Shown one piece after another: positions 37,232 through 48,249 of a stretch of 52,062 nt of DNA (within the stretch, counting starts at the first letter, position 1; every line of letters starts with the position of its first letter). Both the position numbers and the translations under genes were made by a program. Source of the DNA: Gemmatimonadota bacterium. GTDB taxonomy: Bacteria > Gemmatimonadota > Gemmatimonadetes > Longimicrobiales > Gaopeijiaceae. Where the stretch lies: the NCBI GenBank assembly GCA_009838975.1, contig VXQO01000099.1:1-52062 (forward strand), read 5' to 3'. Under the pieces are notes generated by a model that made no database searches, was not told where the DNA came from, and saw nothing but the letters and a program-made list of their open reading frames with translations.

Positions 37232-37425
37232 CTTGGCCACGCTGGATCGCGATCCCGAACGGCCTATGGCCCTCCTCCGTGATCCGCCCGGCCAGATACC
37301 GGGGGTTATTGCGGGATCCGCCAGCTGACGCTTGGTTAAGCCGAGTATCGCCGTTTTGGCACTCGCATCGGATTCAGCGGGGCCATTTTGTCGCGGATTA
37401 CCCCACGATTTCACGGCCCCAAGGT

Positions 37426-37467
37426 TTGACACCTACATTAGCCGCAGAAATATCATGTATGGTGTCA
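37426..37467 (+). promoter_or_regulatory. Candidate promoter and inverted repeat before the 37487 gene
   Basis: TTGACA at 37426-37431 is followed by TATCAT at 37451-37456 (19-base gap, a little long). The arms TGACACC-TACAT (37427-37438) and ATGTA-T-GGTGTCA (37455-37467) are inverted repeats with one extra base, so an operator or hairpin covers the promoter. The rest of the 255-base gap (37232-37486) shows nothing else recognisable. Confidence 0.5.
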
Positions 37468-37486
37468 TAAACGGAAGGGCCGCCAG

Positions 37487-38299
37487 ATGACTGTGGACAC
37501 TGAAACAAAGATCCTGCTGGGAATGATCGTGCTATTCTCTGGCGGGGCTGCCCTGTCACTTGTGTATGCTCTTCCGCCGGTGCTGACGGCGGCGTGCGTA
37601 TGTCTGGTCATCACTGCCACGCTCTACCGGTTTCTCGGAGGCGTGGAAGGCAGCCGTTTCGCGGTGGCCTCGTTTCGGGCGGGTGGCAGCGTCGCGGTTT
37701 TCGCTGCCGCGATGTGGTATGTGAACGGCGAACTGGTTGCAAGGAATCCGCCAATTCAACCCGGTCCGGAGGGCTGGGTCGCGATCGGACGGGACGGTGT
37801 CCCCGTCGATCTCCGTATCGGTGGACAATCTGTGAATCCGGACGCGTCGGAGTTCCTGCGGAACACGAGTTGGGACGTTCGCAGCGATTCCAACGCGGTC
37901 CGGGTGCAAGCGGGAGCGCACGACCTGGCCCTGATCGGCTTGCCCTCGTTCGGCTCTCTCGGCCTTTTCGACCATATCGAAATGGTTGAGGGACGCGGCC
38001 TGCGCTACACCGACGACCTCACCGAGGGGATGGAGGCCAGCCTCTCTCCACCGTACCCGTTCCGTATCCGCGCCGATGGATTCGGTGATAGTTACAACGG
38101 GTTTTCCATCCTCGACGCGGAAGATGCCGTCTTGATCGGTGGCTCTTTGCTCAGCAAGAGTTTCCTTTTCTTCGAACACGCGGGGAGCCACTTCATGGTC
38201 TTCGTGTCGCGGGCAGTCCACAACGATGCGGATCGTGCACCTTTCGCCGCGTTCGGGTTCGCGCAGGTGAGGCTGTCGTTCAGGGGATCCACCCCGTAA
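37487..38299 (+). CDS. Membrane protein of unknown function
   Basis: The 270-residue product has two to three N-terminal membrane segments (residues 8-30, 32-49, 65-82) and an extracytoplasmic domain of about 185 residues, probably beta-rich. No family was recognised. GGAAGG lies before the ATG. The gene stands alone between the symporter cluster and the lipoprotein cluster. Composition is slightly less GC-rich than the dcw cluster. Confidence 0.7.
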   Translation: MTVDTETKILLGMIVLFSGGAALSLVYALPPVLTAACVCLVITATLYRFLGGVEGSRFAVASFRAGGSVAVFAAAMWYVNGELVARNPPIQPGPEGWVAIGRDGVPVDLRIGGQSVNPDASEFLRNTSWDVRSDSNAVRVQAGAHDLALIGLPSFGSLGLFDHIEMVEGRGLRYTDDLTEGMEASLSPPYPFRIRADGFGDSYNGFSILDAEDAVLIGGSLLSKSFLFFEHAGSHFMVFVSRAVHNDADRAPFAAFGFAQVRLSFRGSTP

Positions 38300-38480
38300 G
38301 CCGACGGATCAGCCAGCCGTGCAGCCGGATGGCCTCGTTACCAACTCGGGCCTCGCCCCCCCTCTTTGGCTGCCCCGACGTCAACCCTGCCAATCTGCCA
38401 GACAGGATCTGTCATTTCGGCGGACTTGGCCGGGCCATCGGGGCAGGCGAGGCCGGTGGTGCGGTCCACGGGGAACCATA

Positions 38481-40655
38481 GTGACAAAGGAAACGCTAGC
38501 ATTCTGTGCCGCCGTGGCCATTCTCTGGGCCTCCGCCTGCGGAGACGAAGGGACAGCACCGGTCGCACCTGATCCGCCTCGGCCCACAACCGTCGTCGTT
38601 ACTCCGTCGACGGCAGAACTGACGACACTCGGCACCATAGTCCGCTTCTCTGCCGAAGTGCGGGACCAGAACGGACAGGTGATGACACGGGTCGCCGTAA
38701 CCTGGTCGAGCGCCGACGCTTCGGTCGCGACGATAGACGCCTCCGGGCTTGCGACGGCCGTGGGCAACGGCACGGCCACGATCACAGCCGCAGTTGGGAG
38801 CGCCCAGGGAACCGCCCGAATCACCGTGGACGCCCCATCCCACGCTCCGCCCTATCACGGAACCGTCTTCCTGGACCCCGATATCATTGTTCCATCGGAT
38901 CCAACGGATTTCGTGGGTCTTGAGGCGGCTGGCCGCGGCGAGCGGCTCGTCTATGACCGGCGGTCCGCGGCGTGGATCACGATCCAGGCCTACCTGTTCG
39001 ACGCCGTTTTCGCCAACGGCCCTTCCGTCGAGTTTCAGGTCAATCCGGAGTTCGGAACATGGGCGGAGGCCGAAGCGGCAGCCCGCGACTACGCCCCCGC
39101 GATCGGCCAGATTCCGACCGCATTGCGGGAGGACATGGACGCCGTCTGGATACACCGGGGCGACGAGGCGTTCGGAGGCGGAAACCGCTCGCTACTCGTA
39201 CACACGGATCGCGGCGAACAGTACCGGCAGCAGGGGGTCCTCCCGGAGGTGTTCGTGCACGAGGGTGTCCACACGTCGCTCGATTCAACCCATGCGGACG
39301 CGCCCGGCTGGCTTGCGGCGCAAACAGCCGACCCCACGTTCATCTCGACCTATGCCAGGGACTACCCCGACCGGGACGACCTGGCCGAGAGCTTCAGCGC
39401 CTGGCTGGCCGTCAGACACCGCAGGGACCGCATCACGGAGGGCATGGCGGACACGATTACGGCGGCGATCCCCAACCGCCTGGCCTACTTCGACAGCCTG
39501 GACCTCAACCTCTGCCCCGTCGTCAATGGAGGCGCGTGCGGGGCTCCGGCGCAGTGGACACTGTCAGGCACCGTCAGTCACGGATGGGCCGACCCCGAGT
39601 CGGGGCCCTCAGTGGCGAACCCCGGGGGCCGAGTCGTTGGCGCCGTCGCTGAAGTCGTCGACGGCCCCGATGCCGGACGAAAGGCGACCACGGACGATAA
39701 CGGTCGCTACCTGCTGGAATCGCTGAAAGAGGCGCAGTTCACCGTTCGTGTTGCGGCGGAAGGGTTCGCGCCGGTCGCCCGAACTCTGATTCTGGGTTCG
39801 GACACGACCTTGGCGTTCGCCATCTCCCGTGCGCTGCCGGCCCGGAGACCGCCGGCCCCGTTCCCCGACACGGATCCCGAATGGCTTCGGACGGTGTCCT
39901 CCGACTATCCGCACGCGCATCGCGTAGCCAACGTGCGCGTGTTCTCCGACATCAGCCCGGCCTTCAGCGAGGAACATGCCGAGCATCTGAGCCGGGTGTG
40001 GGACTTCTTCGACGCCCTCTACGCCGAAAACCGCGGCGCTTTCGTCGATGCCTACTACACATCGGATCCGACCGTCTTCAACAAGGTCGCACCGCACTGT
40101 CCAACGATCTTCATCCCCGGCGCCAGGAACGTAACGGGCTGCTATTTCGACTACCCGCGCTGGTTCATCATGCCCTACCAGATCCCGGACCTGGGCACCC
40201 AGTTGCATGAGATAGGCCACGACTTCGCCTTCGCGACATGGCCCGAGATCGAAGCCTCTCAATGGTTCAGGGAAGGGACGGCCCAATACTTCGAGGGCGG
40301 TGCGTTCACCGACGCCGGCTCGCTCCGAGTCCCGGCTCCTTTCCACTGGTGCACCGATCTCTTCCTGCGGTTTGACCGGGAAGACCGCCTCATACCCCTC
40401 GGGCAACTCCTGCGCCTCGCGAAGGTCGATTTCCTCGCGGACAACTGGCGCACCTACTCGCAGTCGTGCATGCTGTTCGACTACCTGGAGCGTCATGAAC
40501 CAGGCGCTCTGTACGCGCTTATCCAGGGAATCAACGCTGGCCGGATCACGTCCAATGACGAGTTGATCGCCGCGCTCCTCGCACTGACCGGCCGGTCCGT
40601 CGGCGAGCTTGAGGAGGCGTACGAATCCTATGCGCGAATCGCCGGCGGAAGATGA
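38481..40655 (+). CDS. Big_2 lipoprotein with two HExxH metallopeptidase regions
   Basis: The 724-residue protein starts with a lipoprotein signal ending in lipobox ASAC and an Ig-like Big_2 domain (about residues 35-115). A first zinc motif HEGVH lies at residues 260-264, followed by a DLAESFSAWL segment that could give the third ligand. A carboxypeptidase-regulatory-like beta domain covers about residues 350-435 (DDNGRYLLESL). A second motif HEIGH lies at 576-580, with a later WFREGTAQYFEGG typical of gluzincins. Two peptidase domains in one chain are unusual. The start GTG 38481 is directly before the signal peptide; an open frame to 38319 lacks one. It overlaps the repeat at its 3' end. 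Confidence 0.85.
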   Translation: MTKETLAFCAAVAILWASACGDEGTAPVAPDPPRPTTVVVTPSTAELTTLGTIVRFSAEVRDQNGQVMTRVAVTWSSADASVATIDASGLATAVGNGTATITAAVGSAQGTARITVDAPSHAPPYHGTVFLDPDIIVPSDPTDFVGLEAAGRGERLVYDRRSAAWITIQAYLFDAVFANGPSVEFQVNPEFGTWAEAEAAARDYAPAIGQIPTALREDMDAVWIHRGDEAFGGGNRSLLVHTDRGEQYRQQGVLPEVFVHEGVHTSLDSTHADAPGWLAAQTADPTFISTYARDYPDRDDLAESFSAWLAVRHRRDRITEGMADTITAAIPNRLAYFDSLDLNLCPVVNGGACGAPAQWTLSGTVSHGWADPESGPSVANPGGRVVGAVAEVVDGPDAGRKATTDDNGRYLLESLKEAQFTVRVAAEGFAPVARTLILGSDTTLAFAISRALPARRPPAPFPDTDPEWLRTVSSDYPHAHRVANVRVFSDISPAFSEEHAEHLSRVWDFFDALYAENRGAFVDAYYTSDPTVFNKVAPHCPTIFIPGARNVTGCYFDYPRWFIMPYQIPDLGTQLHEIGHDFAFATWPEIEASQWFREGTAQYFEGGAFTDAGSLRVPAPFHWCTDLFLRFDREDRLIPLGQLLRLAKVDFLADNWRTYSQSCMLFDYLERHEPGALYALIQGINAGRITSNDELIAALLALTGRSVGELEEAYESYARIAGGR

Positions 40656-41038
40656 CGAGACCCCAACTTGGTCTACCCTCCGGTAGCCAGCATCGGCACT
40701 CACCACAGGAGTCAATGCGGCGCGGTTGCCGACCGTTGAACCGGCTGTGCCTGCTGCTGGCGGCCCTGGCCGTGACCAAGGGGTGCGGTGACGGTGCAGC
40801 CACCGTTACGCCGCCGCCGGATCCGCCTCGTCCCACAACGCTGGTGGTAAGCCCTGCCACGGCGGAGTTCTCCACGCTCGGCGCGTCCGTTCAACTGACG
40901 GCGGAGGTTCGCGACCAGAACGGTAGCGTGATGACCGGCGCGGCGGTGTCGTGGTCGAGCAGCGCCGCGTCCGTCGCGACGGTGGACGCGGCCGGCCTGG
41001 TGACGGCGGTTGCCGGTGGGGCTGCGACAATCACCGCG
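40644..41038 (+). repeat. Direct repeat, copy 1 of 2 (395 bases)
   Basis: This copy starts in the last codons of the metallopeptidase gene (GGCGGAAGATGACGAGACC) and covers the 5' leader, ribosome site, signal peptide and Big_2 domain of the dipeptidase-like gene. It is similar, with no net length change, to 42161-42555. Confidence 0.85.
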
Positions 41039-42094
41039 ATGGCCGCTGAGGCGTCAGGGACCGCCGAGGTCTCGGTGATCGATATGGAGTGGGCCGCCGC
41101 GTTCGTCGCGCGGCAGCATGTCGTCGACGTCATGAACGTCGGGGTGCGGGTCGACCCGGACTGCATCGTGGACTGCGAACGGACGCTCTTTCCCGGAGAC
41201 GGACGGCGCGACCTGGGAGGCATCAAGGAAGTCACCGGAATCGACATGAGCATGACGAATCCGGGTCAGGGAGACTACCCCGAGCAGTTCAGCGACGGGA
41301 GAGTCGCCAACGTCCGTGTCGTCCGCACATATGCGGACATCGAGGTCGCTCAGCAGGACGGCGACTTTGCGATCATGTGGTATTTGCAGACCCGGCCGGC
41401 CACCGGCCGGTGGCAGCTTGGCGGGGATGTTGCAGCCCTGCGCGATTGGTATGACGATGGACTTCGGGTCTTGCAGATCGCCTACGGCAGTCACCGGGAA
41501 GATGCGCGAGGACCCGACGAGCGGCTCGGGTACGGCGCCGGGGAGGGAGAGGAAAGGGGTGTCACGGATCTCGGCCAACGCGCCATCGCAGAAATGAACC
41601 GACTGGGCATGGTTGTGGACTGTTCGCACTGCAACCGGCAGACGACGCTCGACGCGGCGGCCATCTCGACGCAGCCGATCCTCGCCAACCACGCGAACGC
41701 CGAGGCTCTGACCGATGACCCCTACGACCGCAACAAGACCGACGAGGAATTGATGGCCGTCGCGGCCACCGGTGGCGTGATCGGGGTCACAGCGATCAGG
41801 CTGTTTCTCGACACCGACGGCGACGGCGTCACAGGCATGGACGATATGATCGTCCACATCGAGTACATTGCGTCGCTGGTCGGCATCGACCATGTCGGAA
41901 TCGCGACGGACACTTATGTGGACGGTTGGGAACCGAGCTCGCATCACTACGCGAGCGCTGATCTCGCCGCTCTCGATCGCTGGATGCGGCTCACCGCCCG
42001 GCTGCGGGCCCGTGGCTGGAGCGAGGAGGACTTGGCCAAGCTGCTCGGTGGCAACTTCCTTCGGGTGTTTCGGGAAGTCCTCCCGCGGCAGTAA
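40715..42094 (+). CDS. Big_2 lipoprotein with an M19 dipeptidase-like domain
   Basis: The 459-residue protein has a lipoprotein-type signal (Cys at residue 24) and a Big_2 domain (about residues 35-120), then a membrane-dipeptidase-like domain. C-terminal features match M19: MVVDCSHCNRQT, PILANHANAEALTDDPYD, YIASLVGIDHVGIATD and LLGGNFLRVF. However, the N-terminal HxD metal pair and the bridging Glu of renal dipeptidase are not visible; the corresponding stretches read VMNVGVRVD and AIMWYLQTRP. The enzyme may be inactive or use another metal arrangement. ATG 40715 has AGGAG in front; an alternative ATG 40652 overlaps the previous stop (ATGA) but adds non-signal sequence. Confidence 0.82.
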   Translation: MRRGCRPLNRLCLLLAALAVTKGCGDGAATVTPPPDPPRPTTLVVSPATAEFSTLGASVQLTAEVRDQNGSVMTGAAVSWSSSAASVATVDAAGLVTAVAGGAATITAMAAEASGTAEVSVIDMEWAAAFVARQHVVDVMNVGVRVDPDCIVDCERTLFPGDGRRDLGGIKEVTGIDMSMTNPGQGDYPEQFSDGRVANVRVVRTYADIEVAQQDGDFAIMWYLQTRPATGRWQLGGDVAALRDWYDDGLRVLQIAYGSHREDARGPDERLGYGAGEGEERGVTDLGQRAIAEMNRLGMVVDCSHCNRQTTLDAAAISTQPILANHANAEALTDDPYDRNKTDEELMAVAATGGVIGVTAIRLFLDTDGDGVTGMDDMIVHIEYIASLVGIDHVGIATDTYVDGWEPSSHHYASADLAALDRWMRLTARLRARGWSEEDLAKLLGGNFLRVFREVLPRQ

Positions 42095-42097
42095 GGG

Positions 42098-42172
42098 ACA
42101 TGGCCACAGGCGTGGGACACCTCCAACTGGTTGGTCGGAGGGACCGCCACGTACTTCGAGGGCGGAAGATGA
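42098..42172 (+). pseudogene. Remnant of a metallopeptidase gene
   Basis: Twenty-four codons in frame with the preceding gene read TWPQAWDTSNWLVGGTATYF and then EGGR before TGA. The intact peptidase upstream has TWPEIEASQWFREGTAQYFE and then GG, so this is the tail of a lost paralogue. It is fused at its stop to the second copy of the 395-base repeat. Confidence 0.8.
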
Positions 42173-42555
42173 CGAGACCCGAACCTGGTCTACCCTCTGG
42201 TAGCCAGCATCGGCACTCGCCAGAGGAGTCAATGCAGCCCAGTTGCCGGCCGCTGACCCGGCTGTGCGTCCTGCTGGCGGCCGTGGCCGTGACCAAGGGA
42301 TGCGGTGACGGTGGAACCACCATTGCTCCGCCGCCAGACCCGCCACGTCCCACAACGGTGGTGGTGAGCCCTGCCACGGCGGAGCTCTCCGTGCTCGGCG
42401 CAGCCGTTCAACTGGCGGTCGATGTGCGCGACCAAAACGGCAACGTGATTGCCGGCGCGGCGGTGTCGTGGTCAAGCAGCGCGGCATCCGTTGCGACGGT
42501 GGACGCGACGGGGCTGGTGACCGCGGTGGCCAACGGCAACGCGACGATCACCGCG
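42161..42555 (+). repeat. Direct repeat, copy 2 of 2 (395 bases)
   Basis: It covers the leader, AGGAG ribosome site, lipoprotein signal and Big_2 domain of the beta-lactamase-like gene, and matches 40644-41038 over the whole length at roughly 85 percent by eye. The copies are 1517 bases apart and could recombine to delete the dipeptidase-like gene. Confidence 0.85.
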
Positions 42556-43752
42556 AGCGCCGGGTCCGCGTCCGGGTCTGCGGCGGTGAGAGTCGCCGAC
42601 TTCACGGATTTGCTGCAGGGATTCATCGACGCGCACGGCATCGGAGCTGCCGCGCTTGGGATTATGAAACAGGGCAAGATCGTCTACGACCAGGTGATCG
42701 GCCACATGGATGCCGGGCGCCAGGTGCCGGCACGGCAGGACATGGTGATGAGGCTCGCGAGCGTGACCAAACCGATCACTGCTGCCGCCATCCATAAGCT
42801 GGCAAGCGACGGGATGCTGGCGCTGAATGACCGTGTCTTCGATTTGGGGCAGACCGGAGGCGGCCTGCTGGAGATTGATCCATTCCCACAACTGGGCGAT
42901 ACGCGGCTGGCAGACATTACCCTGCTGCACCTGCTTCAGCACCGAGGCGGCTGGGACCGCGAAGTCACATCGGACTTCGCGTTCCGGGAGATAGAGATCG
43001 CGTCGGCGCTGTCGGTCGCGAGTCCCCCGGGACGGAAGAACACTGTCCGGTTCGTCCTGGGTCAGCCCCTCCAGTTCAGCCCCGGTTCGCGGCGCGCGTA
43101 CTCGAACATCGGATACCTTGTGCTCGGCCTCGTTATCGAGGAAGTGTCAGGCCAGGACTACATGACCTATCTGCTTGAGAACATCTTCGACCCTCTCGGC
43201 GTTCCTCGGGACGATGTCATTCAAGGCCGTACTTTCCCCGATGACCGGAGCGACCGGGAGCCCTGGTATGACGGCATACGGAGATGCCGAAACGTCTTCG
43301 ACCCGCCTGGACCTGATGTTCGCTGCCCGGAAGGAGGGTGGGATCACGAGGCCAAGATCGCCCATGGCGGTCTAGTAGCGTCCACTCGGGCGGTTTTGGC
43401 GTTTGTCGAGGCCTACCAGGTCGCTGGCGACGACATTGGTCGCCGTCGCAGAGGGGGAGAGGGGCCTGGGTGGTGGTGGTATCACACGGGAAGCCTCGAC
43501 GGCACCAACACGCTGGTGCTCCAACGCGGCACCGGAATCGGCTACGTCGTTCTCTTCAATCGCCGACTCCGACCATCGTCAGGTCCCAGCTACGTAGAGT
43601 TGTTCATGGAAGTCATTGAGGACCAACTGGCCGCCCTGGCGTCGGCAAGATACTCCGTAGCGGTGGCTGTCGCCGGCGAGACGGGTCCCGACAGCGGCGA
43701 TGTGCTTCTCGACCGGGGTGTTCCGGTCGCTGCAGGACGGGGGCCCCGCTGA
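42232..43752 (+). CDS. Big_2 lipoprotein with a serine beta-lactamase-like (S12) domain
   Basis: The 506-residue protein has a lipoprotein-type signal (Cys at residue 24), a Big_2 domain and then a class C beta-lactamase-fold domain (about residues 125-500). The three active-site motifs are present: S177-VT-K180, Y290-S-N292, and H418-T-G420. This fold covers beta-lactamases, D-amino-acid peptidases and esterases; an esterase or peptidase role is at least as likely as lactamase. The start ATG 42232 has GAGGAG upstream. The first 400 bases are the repeated cassette, so the signal and Ig module were joined to this domain by duplication. Confidence 0.88.
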   Translation: MQPSCRPLTRLCVLLAAVAVTKGCGDGGTTIAPPPDPPRPTTVVVSPATAELSVLGAAVQLAVDVRDQNGNVIAGAAVSWSSSAASVATVDATGLVTAVANGNATITASAGSASGSAAVRVADFTDLLQGFIDAHGIGAAALGIMKQGKIVYDQVIGHMDAGRQVPARQDMVMRLASVTKPITAAAIHKLASDGMLALNDRVFDLGQTGGGLLEIDPFPQLGDTRLADITLLHLLQHRGGWDREVTSDFAFREIEIASALSVASPPGRKNTVRFVLGQPLQFSPGSRRAYSNIGYLVLGLVIEEVSGQDYMTYLLENIFDPLGVPRDDVIQGRTFPDDRSDREPWYDGIRRCRNVFDPPGPDVRCPEGGWDHEAKIAHGGLVASTRAVLAFVEAYQVAGDDIGRRRRGGEGPGWWWYHTGSLDGTNTLVLQRGTGIGYVVLFNRRLRPSSGPSYVELFMEVIEDQLAALASARYSVAVAVAGETGPDSGDVLLDRGVPVAAGRGPR

Positions 43753-44109
43753 GGTTCACGGATTCGGCCCTCCCCGCCAGTCCCGCTCGCGGATCCGAGA
43801 AGCCTGACTCAGTGGGCAGAACAGCTCCCCGGCGTTAAAGGGCGTCCGACAAGCCCGTCCGACGCGCCGCCCAAGCTGCCGGTCGCGCTGGACGCGCCCC
43901 GCGTGGCCCGAGCTTCCCCTTCTCAGCGCGTTTTGCCGTTCCCCGCGCCTGAGACTCCGCCCTTCAGAGGTAATTAGATCGTGATACACTCATGTTATTC
44001 TGCCTTGACATCGCCGAAATATCGCAATTTGTCCTTGTGTTGTGATCAATCGGACACAAAGATGATGCGATCCCAACGGCGACGCTGACAGCGCTCAGGA
44101 GAAACGGAC
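43753..44109. other. Intergenic region, probable promoter of the LRR gene
   Basis: The first 220 bases are GC-rich with no clear hairpin beyond a repeated GTCCGAC. From about 43970 the DNA turns AT-rich and has TTGACA at 44005-44010, without a good -10. TTGTGT (44035-44040) and ACACAA (44054-44059) form a small inverted repeat. AGGAG lies 8 bases before the LRR gene start. No gene was seen. Confidence 0.4.
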
Positions 44110-47100
44110 ATGCAATCGCGACGGCTCCGAGAAGATGGTGGTGGTCAGACGCGTCGGCGCGGGCACGTTTTCGGAACCATGATCCGGCTTTCCGCAGTGC
44201 TGGGCCTCGCGTTGGCGTGCGGAGACGACGGTTCAACCGGACCTGCGATACCCGTGCCCGCAAGGGTTGTGGTAAGCCCGGCAGAGGTGCTGTTGGACAC
44301 GCGCGGTTCGACCGTGCAGCTAACCGCCGAGGTGCTCGCCCGAAACGGACAGCCAATGACTGGCGCCGCCGTGACGTGGTCGAGTGGCGGCATCGCGGTG
44401 GCGACCGCGGATTCGACCGGGCTTGTGACGGCAATGGCCGACGGAACGGTGACCGTCACGGCCACGTTTGGGGGGATCACGGGCACGGCGACCGTGAGCG
44501 TGGCGGCAACCGACAGTGCATCGACGGACCGTGCGGCACTGGTGGCGCTCTACGAGGCAACCGGTGGGCCGAACTGGCTCAACAGCAACAACTGGTTGAC
44601 CGACGCGCCGCTGGGTGAGTGGTTCGGCGTGACGACGAATCATGAGGGACGCGTCGTCGCCTTGGAGATGACTTACTACGATTGGGATACCGGGCAGTGG
44701 ATCGACAACAACATATCGGGCCCGATCCCCCCCGAACTCGGCAATCTGGCCAACCTGGAGCGGATGCAGTTCTATGCCAACAGCCTAACCGGATCGATCC
44801 CGCCGGAGCTCGGCAACCTGGCCAACCTCACGTTGTTGGACTTCAACGCAAATGATGTGTCAGGCCCGATCCCGGCGGAGCTCGGCGAGCTGGCCAACCT
44901 CACCACTCTGACTCTCTACGGCAACAATCTTTCGGGTCCGATCCCGCCCGAGCTCGGCAACCTCGGCAACCTGACGGAGCTATGGCTGGGGGACAACCGA
45001 CTCACCGGCCAGGTCCCGTCCGAGTTGGGGAATCTCAGCGGCCTGGTGTCGCTGTTCCTGAATGACAACATCCTGATCGGACCGATCCCACCGGAACTCG
45101 GTAACCTGGCCAACCTGGAACACCTCGACTTCCGTAACAACAGACTTACGGGTCCGATCCCGCCAGAACTCGGCAACCTGTCGCGCCTGGAACAACTCTA
45201 CGTCCGCAACAACAGGTTTTCAGGTTCAATCCCGCCCGAACTCGGCCACCTGACCAACCTGGTGCGCCTGGAACTGCACAGTAACAGGCTGTCGGGGTCG
45301 ATCCCCACAAGCTTCTTGCAACTTGCCAATTTGACGGACATCGAGTTTGCTCGGAATGATGGCCTGTGTGCGCCCGGTACGCGAGAGTTCGTAGCGTGGA
45401 TTCAGGGGATAAACCGGGCGGACGGGCCATTCTGCGATGTCGCGGCGCTCAAGCAGCTGTTCGAGACCGCGGGTGGATCGGAGTGGACGAACTCCACCGG
45501 ATGGCTAGGCGACCCGGTCCTGGCCGACTGGTACGGGATCCGGACCGACTCGTCCGGCCGTGTAACCGAGGTCGATCTCAGCAACAATGGACTCTCCGGA
45601 CGTCTGCCCGCCGGTATCGGTGAATTGGCGTACATGACCGCGCTTGGAATCGCGGGCAACACGGACCTTGCGGGCCGTCTTCCGGTGTCGCTGAGCGGTC
45701 TCGGTCTCCAGACCCTTCACTACTCCGGAACGGCTCTCTGTGTCCCGTCCTATACTTCCTTTCGCGATTGGCTGGGTACCATCCCGTCTCACGATGGCAC
45801 CGGCGCCGAGTGTCCTCCCTTGTCGGACCGCGAGATTCTGGTCATGGTCTACGAGAACACAGGCGGGCCAGGCTGGCGCCGCCGGGACAACTGGTTGACT
45901 GACGCGCCGCTCGCCGATTGGCACGGCGTGCAAGTGGATGCCTCCGGCCGAGTCGAGCGGCTGTACCTGGACGACAACGAGCTTTCCGGATCGATCCCGT
46001 CCACAATCGGTGACCTGGCCGATTTGGAGCGGCTGTACCTGGACGACAACGAGCTTTCCGGGCCGATCCCGTCCGCAATTGGTCACCTGGCCAGCCTGGA
46101 GCGGCTGCGGCTGAACGAAAACGAGCTGACAGGCCCGATTCCCCCTCAACTGGGCGATCTCGCAAGCTTGACCCAGCTCCGGATGGCGGTCAACCAGCTT
46201 TCGGGCCGATTGCCCCAGGAGCTTGGAAACCTTGCGGCGCTCGAACAGATGTCTCTCGGCGCGAACAGACTGGAAGGTCCGATACCCCCCGAATTCAGCG
46301 GCATGGCAAACCTGACGGAACTCGAGATGGGGAACAACGCCGGGATGACCGGGCAGCTGCCGATGAGCATTACGGGTCTCCGCCTCAACGTGCTCACGGC
46401 TGGAGGCACGGACCTGTGCGCTCCCTCGGACCCCGATTTCCAGACCTGGCTCGAGGCGGTGCCCAGCCGACGGATCAAGCCCTGCACGGAAGCGGAGCCG
46501 CCTGCGGCCTACCTCACCCAGGCGGTGCAGTCGCGGCAGTTCCCCGTGCCGCTCGTGGCGGGCGAGAGGGCGCTGTTGCGCGTGTTCCCGATTGCCCGGC
46601 AGACGACCAGCGAGGGCATTCCACCGGTTCGTGTCCGCTTCTATCTGAACGACCGAGAGACGCATGCGGTGAGTATTCCCGCCAAGCCCTCGCCCATCCC
46701 CACCGAGGTGAACGAAGCGAGCCTGTCAACGTCCGGCAACGTTGAGATTCCCGGAAATGTCGTACAACCGGGCCTCGAAATGGTCGTCGAGATCGACCCG
46801 GACGGCACGCTGGACCCGGCGCTCGGGGTCGCAAAGCGCGTCCCTGATGCGGGCCGCCTGACGGTGGAGGTGGCGGCAATGCCGCCGCTTGACCTGACGC
46901 TGATCCCGCTGCTGTGGACAGAGAATGCGGATTCGTCGATCATCGGCCTTATCGACGACATGGCCGCCGATCCCGAAAACCACACCATGTTGAGCGACAT
47001 TCACACGTTTCTGCCGGTGCGTGACCTTGCGGTGACAGCCCACGAGCCCGTGTTGACTGCCACAAACAATGCGAGCGATCTGCTACGCCTGACCAGCATG

Positions 47101-47964
47101 ATCCAAGCCATGGAAGGCGGTACCGGCCATTACATGGGCATGATGCCAAGGCCTCCCGCCGTGGGTTCCTACGGGGTCGCGTATGTTGAGGGCCGAGCGA
47201 GTTTCTCGCGCCCTGACGCAGGGACGATGGCCCACGAGTTGGGACACAATCTGAGCCTGCACCACGCGACGCGCTGCGACGGCGGGTTCGACAGTGACCC
47301 GTCGTACCCGCATCCCCATGGAGTCACGGGAGCCTGGGGATTCGACTTTCGCAACGGGACACTGGTGCCTCCGACCGCGTGGGACTTGATGGCGCCCGGG
47401 GGGTGCCGACCGCGTTTGATCAGCGACTATAGCTTCACCAACGCGCTTCGCTTCCGTCTGCACGACGAGCCGACGGCGGCGGCAGCCGTCGTCAGGTCCC
47501 TTCTCGTCTGGGGCGGGATCAGTGGCAACACGGTGCCGTTCCTGGAACCCGTCTTCGTTGTCGACGCGCCAGCCGCGTTGCCGGATTCAACCGGAGAGTA
47601 TCTGGTGGTGGGACGAGATGTCGACGGCACCGAACTCTTCTCGCTCAGCTTCTCCATGCCCGAGACAGCGGATGGCGACGGGAGCTCATCCTTCGCGTTC
47701 GTGCTGCCGGTACAGCCTCATTGGGAAGGGAGCCTCAGCAGTGTAACGCTCTCAGGCCCAGCGGGATCGGTCGCCCTGGATCAAGGCAGCGACCATCCCA
47801 TGGCCGTCTTGCGCAATCGGCGCAACGGGCAGGTGCGCGCCATCCTCCGGGACTTGCCGCTCCAGAGCCAGGCCGCCCTGGATGCGGTTGGTCAGGCCAC
47901 AGGTTCACCGCTGAGAGTGCTGTTCAGCCGAGGGATTCCGGGCGCTGAGGCTTGGCGACGGTGA
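44110..47964 (+). CDS. Giant lipoprotein: Big_2, three leucine-rich-repeat modules and a metzincin protease
   Basis: The 1284-residue protein has a lipoprotein-type signal (Cys at residue 37) and a Big_2 domain (about residues 50-137). Three LRR modules follow, each opened by a cap ending in WL.D..LA.W-like motifs (about residues 141, 445 and 575). The repeats use the plant-type pattern L..L.L..N.L.G.IP, about 24 residues each; the first module has some nine. The C-terminal 480 residues include a metzincin site HELGHNLSLHH (residues 1042-1052) with a Met-turn DLM at about 1094, like M66-type proteases. The Gly usual in HExxHxxGxxH is Ser here. The start ATG 44110 has a strong AGGAG; ATG 44179 is the alternative before the signal. 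Likely role: adhesion and protease at the cell surface. Confidence 0.9.
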   Translation: MQSRRLREDGGGQTRRRGHVFGTMIRLSAVLGLALACGDDGSTGPAIPVPARVVVSPAEVLLDTRGSTVQLTAEVLARNGQPMTGAAVTWSSGGIAVATADSTGLVTAMADGTVTVTATFGGITGTATVSVAATDSASTDRAALVALYEATGGPNWLNSNNWLTDAPLGEWFGVTTNHEGRVVALEMTYYDWDTGQWIDNNISGPIPPELGNLANLERMQFYANSLTGSIPPELGNLANLTLLDFNANDVSGPIPAELGELANLTTLTLYGNNLSGPIPPELGNLGNLTELWLGDNRLTGQVPSELGNLSGLVSLFLNDNILIGPIPPELGNLANLEHLDFRNNRLTGPIPPELGNLSRLEQLYVRNNRFSGSIPPELGHLTNLVRLELHSNRLSGSIPTSFLQLANLTDIEFARNDGLCAPGTREFVAWIQGINRADGPFCDVAALKQLFETAGGSEWTNSTGWLGDPVLADWYGIRTDSSGRVTEVDLSNNGLSGRLPAGIGELAYMTALGIAGNTDLAGRLPVSLSGLGLQTLHYSGTALCVPSYTSFRDWLGTIPSHDGTGAECPPLSDREILVMVYENTGGPGWRRRDNWLTDAPLADWHGVQVDASGRVERLYLDDNELSGSIPSTIGDLADLERLYLDDNELSGPIPSAIGHLASLERLRLNENELTGPIPPQLGDLASLTQLRMAVNQLSGRLPQELGNLAALEQMSLGANRLEGPIPPEFSGMANLTELEMGNNAGMTGQLPMSITGLRLNVLTAGGTDLCAPSDPDFQTWLEAVPSRRIKPCTEAEPPAAYLTQAVQSRQFPVPLVAGERALLRVFPIARQTTSEGIPPVRVRFYLNDRETHAVSIPAKPSPIPTEVNEASLSTSGNVEIPGNVVQPGLEMVVEIDPDGTLDPALGVAKRVPDAGRLTVEVAAMPPLDLTLIPLLWTENADSSIIGLIDDMAADPENHTMLSDIHTFLPVRDLAVTAHEPVLTATNNASDLLRLTSMIQAMEGGTGHYMGMMPRPPAVGSYGVAYVEGRASFSRPDAGTMAHELGHNLSLHHATRCDGGFDSDPSYPHPHGVTGAWGFDFRNGTLVPPTAWDLMAPGGCRPRLISDYSFTNALRFRLHDEPTAAAAVVRSLLVWGGISGNTVPFLEPVFVVDAPAALPDSTGEYLVVGRDVDGTELFSLSFSMPETADGDGSSSFAFVLPVQPHWEGSLSSVTLSGPAGSVALDQGSDHPMAVLRNRRNGQVRAILRDLPLQSQAALDAVGQATGSPLRVLFSRGIPGAEAWRR
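45955..46098 (+). repeat. Near-identical tandem 72-base LRR-coding units
   Basis: Units start at 45955 and 46027 with GAGCGGCTGTACCTGGACGA; a third, more diverged unit begins at 46099. Each encodes one 24-residue LRR, and the first two are almost identical at DNA level, which points to recent unit duplication. Confidence 0.85.
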
Positions 47965-47979
47965 AGGGCGTGGTAGGCG

Positions 47980-48249
47980 CTAGACACTATCGTCCCCCGG
48001 AAGGGACCGCCTCTTCGGGCGCTCCTCCAACAATCTCTCGAGGAAGTCGATCCGCTCTTCGAGACGTTGCAACTCGTCGGCCTGGTGGAAGTCGTCCCGC
48101 CTTGTCGGGCCCCCGACCGCCAGCCGGTCGATTCTCTCTTCGAGCCGGTTGACCCGCTGCAGCAGCCGGGTGCCCCACGATCGCTGTTGCCGGGTCCCCG
48201 CGAGCAATGCCGCGACCATCAGCAGAACGAAGATTGTTGCCACGCTCAT
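47980..48249 (-). CDS. Small membrane-anchored coiled-coil protein
   Basis: The 89-residue product has an N-terminal membrane span (residues 4-19) and two helical heptad stretches (RLLQRVNRLEERIDRL and LQRLEERIDFLERLLEE), which recall PspB-like or tail-anchored scaffold proteins. No family was named. AGGAG precedes ATG 48249, and it lies 9 bases after the APC permease gene, probably co-transcribed. Confidence 0.75.
   Translation of the reverse strand: MSVATIFVLLMVAALLAGTRQQRSWGTRLLQRVNRLEERIDRLAVGGPTRRDDFHQADELQRLEERIDFLERLLEERPKRRSLPGDDSV

Follow-up and report, generated by a model that had tools for sequence, protein, structure and literature searches.

A probable bacterial surface protease with plant-receptor-like leucine-rich repeats belongs to a large, diversifying gene family in Gemmatimonadota

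The stretch of DNA analysed here, hereafter the window (52,062 nucleotides; contig VXQO01000099.1 of assembly GCA_009838975.1), comes from a Gemmatimonadota bacterium and carries at 44110..47964 an open reading frame (ORF) encoding a 1284-residue lipoprotein-like protein that combines leucine-rich repeats (LRRs) with a metzincin protease. The gene lies on the forward strand, as do all window genes and gene parts named below, and its ATG is preceded by AGGAG; it was located among the sequence-derived ORFs and their translations, its domains were assigned with Pfam and its motifs by pattern. An earlier note, made from the sequence alone, had read it as plant-type LRRs joined to a metzincin on a bacterial lipoprotein. 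Pfam, AlphaFold and structural superpositions agree on the joined LRR and metzincin parts, whereas the lipoprotein part is only probable. The window gene thus probably encodes a bacterial surface protease joined to recognition repeats of plant-receptor-like type; the protein presumably faces outward and presumably cleaves proteins. Its signal peptide (44110..44217) opens with a long, basic n-region, and the hydrophobic core LSAVLGLALA runs into a lipobox-like ALA/C at Cys37, with Gly at +2 and then Asp, as judged by eye and by the PROSITE lipobox pattern. The candidate lipoprotein signal accordingly reads MIRLSAVLGLALA/CGDD; a similar C-[GSAT]-[DEG] context occurs in 57 of 113 relatives, and lipidation of the window protein is plausible rather than proven. 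A Big_2 bacterial Ig-like domain follows at residues 54-129 (44269..44496; PF02368, E = 1.5e-9).

Downstream of the Big_2 domain are three LRR modules, each with its own N-terminal cap (N-cap), exactly as the earlier note had described: module 1 has its cap at residue 140 and nine units (44527..45432), module 2 its cap at residue 443 and two units (45436..45822), and module 3 its cap at residue 572 and six units (45823..46482), all delimited by sequence pattern and the last also supported by an AlphaFold2 model. The 17 units are 24 residues long and follow the L.G.IP pattern, and Pfam LRR_1 matches the protein with E = 5e-43. A 714-residue model spanning module 3 and the protease reached a mean predicted local distance difference test score (pLDDT) of 91.6 and a predicted template modelling score (pTM) of 0.87. 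Its LRR part superposes on the ectodomains of the plant receptors ERL1, PXY, FLS2 and PEPR1 with Z scores of 25-28 at 24-32% identity, ERL1 giving Z 27.7 over 222 aligned residues at 29% identity. The superposition begins at model residues 1-2, indicating a plant-like N-cap fold, and the plant-type cysteine pair is found in none of the three window N-cap sequences. The first two units of module 3, at residues 614 and 638, are 86% identical over 72 nucleotides, including an exact run of 35; the next most similar pair in the window gene reaches 78% and the median pair 54%. A similar pair therefore exists, as the earlier note had said, but calling its members almost identical was an overstatement. 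LRR modules also stand alone in the same genome, since two LRR proteins whose starts resemble those of lipoproteins and whose caps are similar have no protease (L254:2453-5209, 919 residues; L253:1854-3764, 637 residues).

The protease region comprises an N-terminal beta domain (46483..46866; pLDDT mostly 92-98), a metzincin catalytic domain at residues 920-1123 (46867..47478) and a C-terminal beta domain (47479..47961; pLDDT mostly above 90), the last with G377, F404 and P409 invariant in an alignment of 87 protease-region relatives. The region modelled from the alignment has a pLDDT of 93.8 and a pTM of 0.92. In VIA-align superpositions, model residues 131-332 match ADAM-8 with Z 14.8 and a root mean square deviation (rmsd) of 3.0 over 169 residues, and model residues 3-448, which include the N-terminal beta domain, match StcE (3ujz) with Z 12.8 and rmsd 7.7 over 335 residues. 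The structure prediction called for by the earlier note thus folds the C-terminal region as a metzincin and the repeats as an LRR solenoid, both being predicted folds. Sequence profiles point the same way: Peptidase_M66 scores 21.8 bits on the window protein and PF10462 scores 23.7 bits on the protease domain, against a curated cut-off of 20.6, and a weak M66 match (Pfam, E < 0.1) is present in 86 of 87 family members. A profile search of the PDB returned short metzincin-motif matches only.

The zinc-binding motif HELGHNLSLHH occupies residues 1042-1052 (47233..47265), with H1042, E1043 and H1046 forming HExxH and the third ligand, H1052, six residues beyond it. The corresponding H251, E252 and H255 are invariant in the 87 aligned rows, and 117 of 118 motif-bearing sequences have His as the third ligand. 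The glycine of the metzincin consensus HExxHxxGxxH varies across the family (S 55, N 22, G 21, D 6) and is Ser1049 in the window protein; because this position varies, Ser1049 is a natural variant of a structural, non-catalytic position. The earlier note numbered Ser1049 correctly, but the residue to mutate in a protease assay would be Glu1043. The Met-turn it had recognised is the D-L-M at residues 1092-1094 (47383..47391), followed by a conserved Cys; nearly all relatives have D[LVIFM]M and then C, the window copy reading DLMAPGGC rather than DLMSYC. Assignment to the metzincin clan rests on fold, zinc ligands and Met-turn.

The window gene is one of many. In its genome the protease region occurs in 27 full-length copies, whose ORFs total 98.6 kb or 2.2% of the genome; the other 26 share about 34-63% identity with the window copy in this region, and 21 of the 27 have at least two LRR units. 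A one-off fusion is ruled out by these paralogs, and the architecture, which the earlier note had thought unusual, is not a single oddity: a search of 23 genomes of the genus gave 10-50 matches in every one, and multi-copy sets occur in other genera (9-31 in g4, 6-21 in g73, 14 in g16, 9 in g3 and 7 in g6). Many other Gemmatimonadota have zero or 1-4 distant copies, three of which were examined (614-670 residues) and lack LRRs. Repeat counts across the family run from 0 to 30, some members being proteases without LRRs, and a tree of the protease contains about three changes between LRR-bearing and LRR-less forms, with the latter placed near the base, a placement made unsure by long branches.

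The named relatives amount to 78 loci in 39 assemblies, mostly Gemmatimonadota metagenome-assembled genomes (MAGs) with sponge-study names; the assemblies are MAGs, in which repeats may be misassembled. Several loci are titled Gammaproteobacteria, at least one of which is placed in the window's own family by the genome collection. The family occurs in the jk18x MAGs, which are Ircinia sponge symbionts (PMC9531527), and Palauibacter includes sponge species (PMC10469786); for the other MAGs the sponge link was judged from their names, and the habitat of the window genome is taken from that of its relatives. A few loci carry an Acidobacteriota label that could not be verified. Two LRR-metzincin genes (L084 and L088) sit on the long contigs CATOST010000009 and 015 of a MAG with this label, and either transfer to another phylum or an error of labelling or binning would account for them. 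Carriage on plasmids or phages was rejected, since nothing like the family was found there: a plasmid search returned only a Thermus M66 protein at 31%, and a search of viral contigs two short matches.

How the LRR part evolves was measured as the ratio of nonsynonymous to synonymous differences per site (pN/pS), by pairwise counting in nine independent paralog or xenolog pairs picked among close copies. At concave positions of the solenoid, pN/pS is 1.14 (0.97-1.37) when their own pS is the denominator and 1.24 (1.06-1.45) when pS is taken over all codons of the units; side-exposed LRR positions give 0.71-0.79, buried positions about 0.14 and the protease 0.37. Concave positions change faster than the other exposed positions of the same units, and no bootstrap replicate reversed this order. 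In the 54 best-matched units, concave pN (0.38) still exceeds concave pS (0.25). Saturated or misaligned repeats were therefore rejected as the cause of the high ratio, which stays above 1 both when units must be 85% or more identical apart from their concave codons and on the concave positions' own pS; ratios up to 2.2 in filtered units use a pS biased low by the filter and are not counted as evidence. Between same-locus orthologs the protease gives 0.28 and concave positions 0.44-0.55, like side positions, so that LRR-specific positive selection was not found at this level and all classes are under purifying selection. Strong purifying selection between orthologs in turn argues that the family is translated. 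The faster-than-neutral change of the concave face, the presumed binding face, in relatives suggests that sponge-associated bacteria hold a varied set of "aimed" proteases. It also lends support to the earlier note's description of the protease as LRR-guided, although guidance itself is presumed.

Whole repeats also come and go. Insertions and deletions in the N-terminal part are often of exactly 24 or 48 residues, i.e., gains or losses of whole units. Some paralogs have proteases 90% identical and N-terminal parts 53% identical; others have similar N-terminal parts and dissimilar proteases. One gene (L045:8017) is 61-63% identical to two others (L045:1758 and L202:3630) in the N-terminal part and 42-44% in the protease, a sequence pattern that suggests module exchange between family members. 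The most marked case is a tandem array in one relative (G171:C2:1741149-1766378; L205 and L206), in which 73 units carry 69 concave haplotypes. Its framework pS is 0.18 and its concave pN 0.64; codon usage predicts a framework pS of 0.74, and codon bias was therefore rejected as the source of the uniform framework codons. In this respect the array looks like a natural binder library. A diversity-generating retroelement was considered for it and rejected: the concave codons are not AAY-based, their third positions are mostly C or G, and their first and second positions are mixed. An adenine-directed process is thus not indicated, a reverse transcriptase not having been searched for. The units of the window gene are synonymously saturated (0.63 observed versus 0.54 expected). 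The earlier note's claim that the LRR array is still evolving is accordingly weak for the window gene and clearly holds for its relatives, with their unit indels and the tandem array; it fits the family rather than this gene, because the units in its own genome are older and saturated.

The window gene lies in an accessory block (37232..48016) with three other genes for Big_2 surface enzymes. Three sister species (L251, L252 and L259) lack this 10.8-kb block at the corresponding site, and in them the DNA flanking it, left of 37231 and right of 48017, adjoins at a distance of about 0-215 bp; two of these sisters are at 98.4-98.6% identity in recA (98.2% in rpoB where measured) and the third at 87%. 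The other block genes encode a 778-residue protein with Big_2 and CarboxypepD_reg domains and the motifs HEGVH and HEIGH (38319..40655), for which Pfam gave no peptidase family match; a Big_2 protein with an M19 dipeptidase-like domain (40652..42094; PF01244, E = 1.5e-60); and a Big_2 protein with a beta-lactamase or serine-hydrolase fold (42100..43752; PF00144, E = 1.9e-47). Leader and Big_2 DNA is common to the block genes: a 300-nucleotide stretch covering a start region and signal (40639..40938) recurs at 42156-42455 with 86% identity, and a 107-nucleotide piece is present four times. Neither an integrase nor a transposase was recognised within the block. Movement of family members between lineages is indicated elsewhere in the genome. 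One sibling gene (L048) and its counterpart in a genome of another taxonomic family (G076) have a DNA identity of 86-89%, compared with 78.6% for recA and 73.5% for rpoB between the two genomes, and the similarity ends about 75 bp past the gene; lateral transfer best explains this excess of identity in the gene.

Taken together, these data make it reasonably probable, in our judgement, that the window protein belongs to a large family of envelope-anchored metzincins that duplicates and moves laterally and whose cleavage is aimed by LRRs. In the mechanism we propose, the LRR solenoid would be the recognition part, its concave face binding a protein or glycoprotein on the cell or close to it. 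Binding would bring the C-terminal zinc protease to this target, and cleavage would follow. After duplication, substitutions and the gain or loss of entire 24-residue units would alter the concave face, and the protease would be conserved. Because the concave faces of the copies change and the protease is kept, one genome would hold proteases aimed at different targets. Duplication, concave change and subsequent constraint are what would be expected if the concave face binds something, and a particular thing in each copy. We infer export and lipid anchoring, catalytic activity, substrate binding by the LRRs, and targets in the sponge host or its microbes.

Several observations weigh against this reading. 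The lipobox of the window protein is known from a pattern match alone, and the window gene has no close relative, its best DNA identity in the genus being 68-69%. Two full-length relatives have no HExxH match (L076 ORF at 6570 and L080 ORF at 8325); they are sisters in the tree and, judging from their sequences, possibly inactive members. The pN/pS values come from pairwise counts rather than from a codon-model likelihood, and 1 lies just inside the stricter interval. It was the analyst who picked the pairs among close copies, and selection was measured on family members and not on the window gene.

Nutrient scavenging would account for part of the evidence: digestive ectoproteases would dock by their LRRs on abundant host or community glycoproteins and feed on the peptides, and the diversity would reflect many foods, not conflict. 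The company of an M19 dipeptidase, a second HExxH protein and a serine-hydrolase-fold protein in the block, all with Big_2 leaders, fits such a role, as does the M66-like fold shared with StcE, a mucin-cleaving protease of enterohaemorrhagic E. coli. We nevertheless regard it as unlikely, given that faster-than-neutral change confined to the concave face exceeds what generalist digestion needs and that conservation between orthologs suggests fixed, specific targets. If the diversity did reflect conflict, the LRRs might instead recognise surface proteins of rival bacteria, predatory protists or phages, which the protease would destroy. Diversification after duplication, lateral transfer and an accessory location are usual for conflict systems; however, a Pfam-only survey, in which PADLOC was not run, identified no toxin, immunity or known defence genes beside the window gene, and an anchored lipoprotein would reach close targets only. 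Contact-dependent antagonism or defence of this kind seems decidedly improbable to us.

A further proposal is that the LRRs are a mere stalk or adhesin, whose concave diversity would reflect relaxed constraint while the protease acts on whatever is near. Repeat counts from 0 to 30 and members with a protease and no LRRs speak for it. But relaxation alone gives a ratio of about 1 at most and should appear in orthologs too, whereas between paralogs the concave positions outpace the other exposed positions of their units and, slightly, synonymous sites as well, yet are constrained between orthologs. We accordingly consider it highly improbable. The LRR-aimed protease family, which we prefer, admits an extension that we offer tentatively: sponge-associated Gemmatimonadota may share horizontally a germline repertoire of LRR recognition parts, with binding faces under positive selection and wired to a protease so that recognition is cutting, in a logic like that of plant resistance genes or lamprey variable lymphocyte receptors (VLRs). 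If the LRR-aimed reading is right, each bacterium would possess tens of surface proteases with different aims, obtained by keeping one catalytic part constant while a receptor-like part varies. The family would then be a concrete candidate, at the molecular level, for the way in which sponge symbionts recognise host or community proteins and modify them; this question has long been open and is usually addressed only by lists of "eukaryotic-like" domains. It would also supply natural libraries of protease-attached LRR binders and a bacterial parallel to LRR diversification in plant and lamprey immunity.

The individual parts of this system have been described before, namely M66-like metzincins, bacterial plant-type LRRs and the enrichment of LRRs in sponge symbionts. 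For a fused, expanded and concave-diversified LRR-metzincin family we found no description in a literature whose coverage was incomplete, which is not proof of novelty. Eukaryotic-like LRR proteins are enriched in the metagenomes of Ircinia sponges, according to the available text of PMC9531527, and the window family, too, consists of LRR proteins of sponge-associated bacteria, including the very jk18x MAGs of that study; however, the same text describes no LRR-metzincin family. The GALA effectors of Ralstonia are likewise bacterial plant-like LRR proteins with reported positive selection, but they are injected F-box proteins and the selection was reported on their convex side (PMC2244805), whereas in the window family the fast change falls on the concave face. 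M66 proteases such as StcE share the metzincin HExxHxxxxxH and Met-turn, and StcE aligns with the model over the 335 residues given above, an rmsd of 7.7 making a common fold outside the catalytic domain no more than possible; identity is only 15%, and the window protein differs in having Ser for Gly and a Big_2 and LRR N-terminus, and in belonging to a multi-copy family. Among ADAM/adamalysin (M12B) proteases, ADAM-8 is the closest catalytic-domain fold, at 17% identity, but by Pfam the window sequence family is nearer to M66, and no Pfam match to ADAM accessory domains was found in the window protein. With the ectodomains of plant LRR receptor kinases the window protein shares the 24-residue L.G.IP units and the N-cap fold; it differs in having no kinase, caps without the Cys pair, and a protease as effector. 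The variable lymphocyte receptors of jawless vertebrates and plant resistance proteins combine a constant LRR framework with variable concave residues. The window family shows the same division, but its variation lies between germline gene copies of a bacterium, and its LRRs are joined to a protease.

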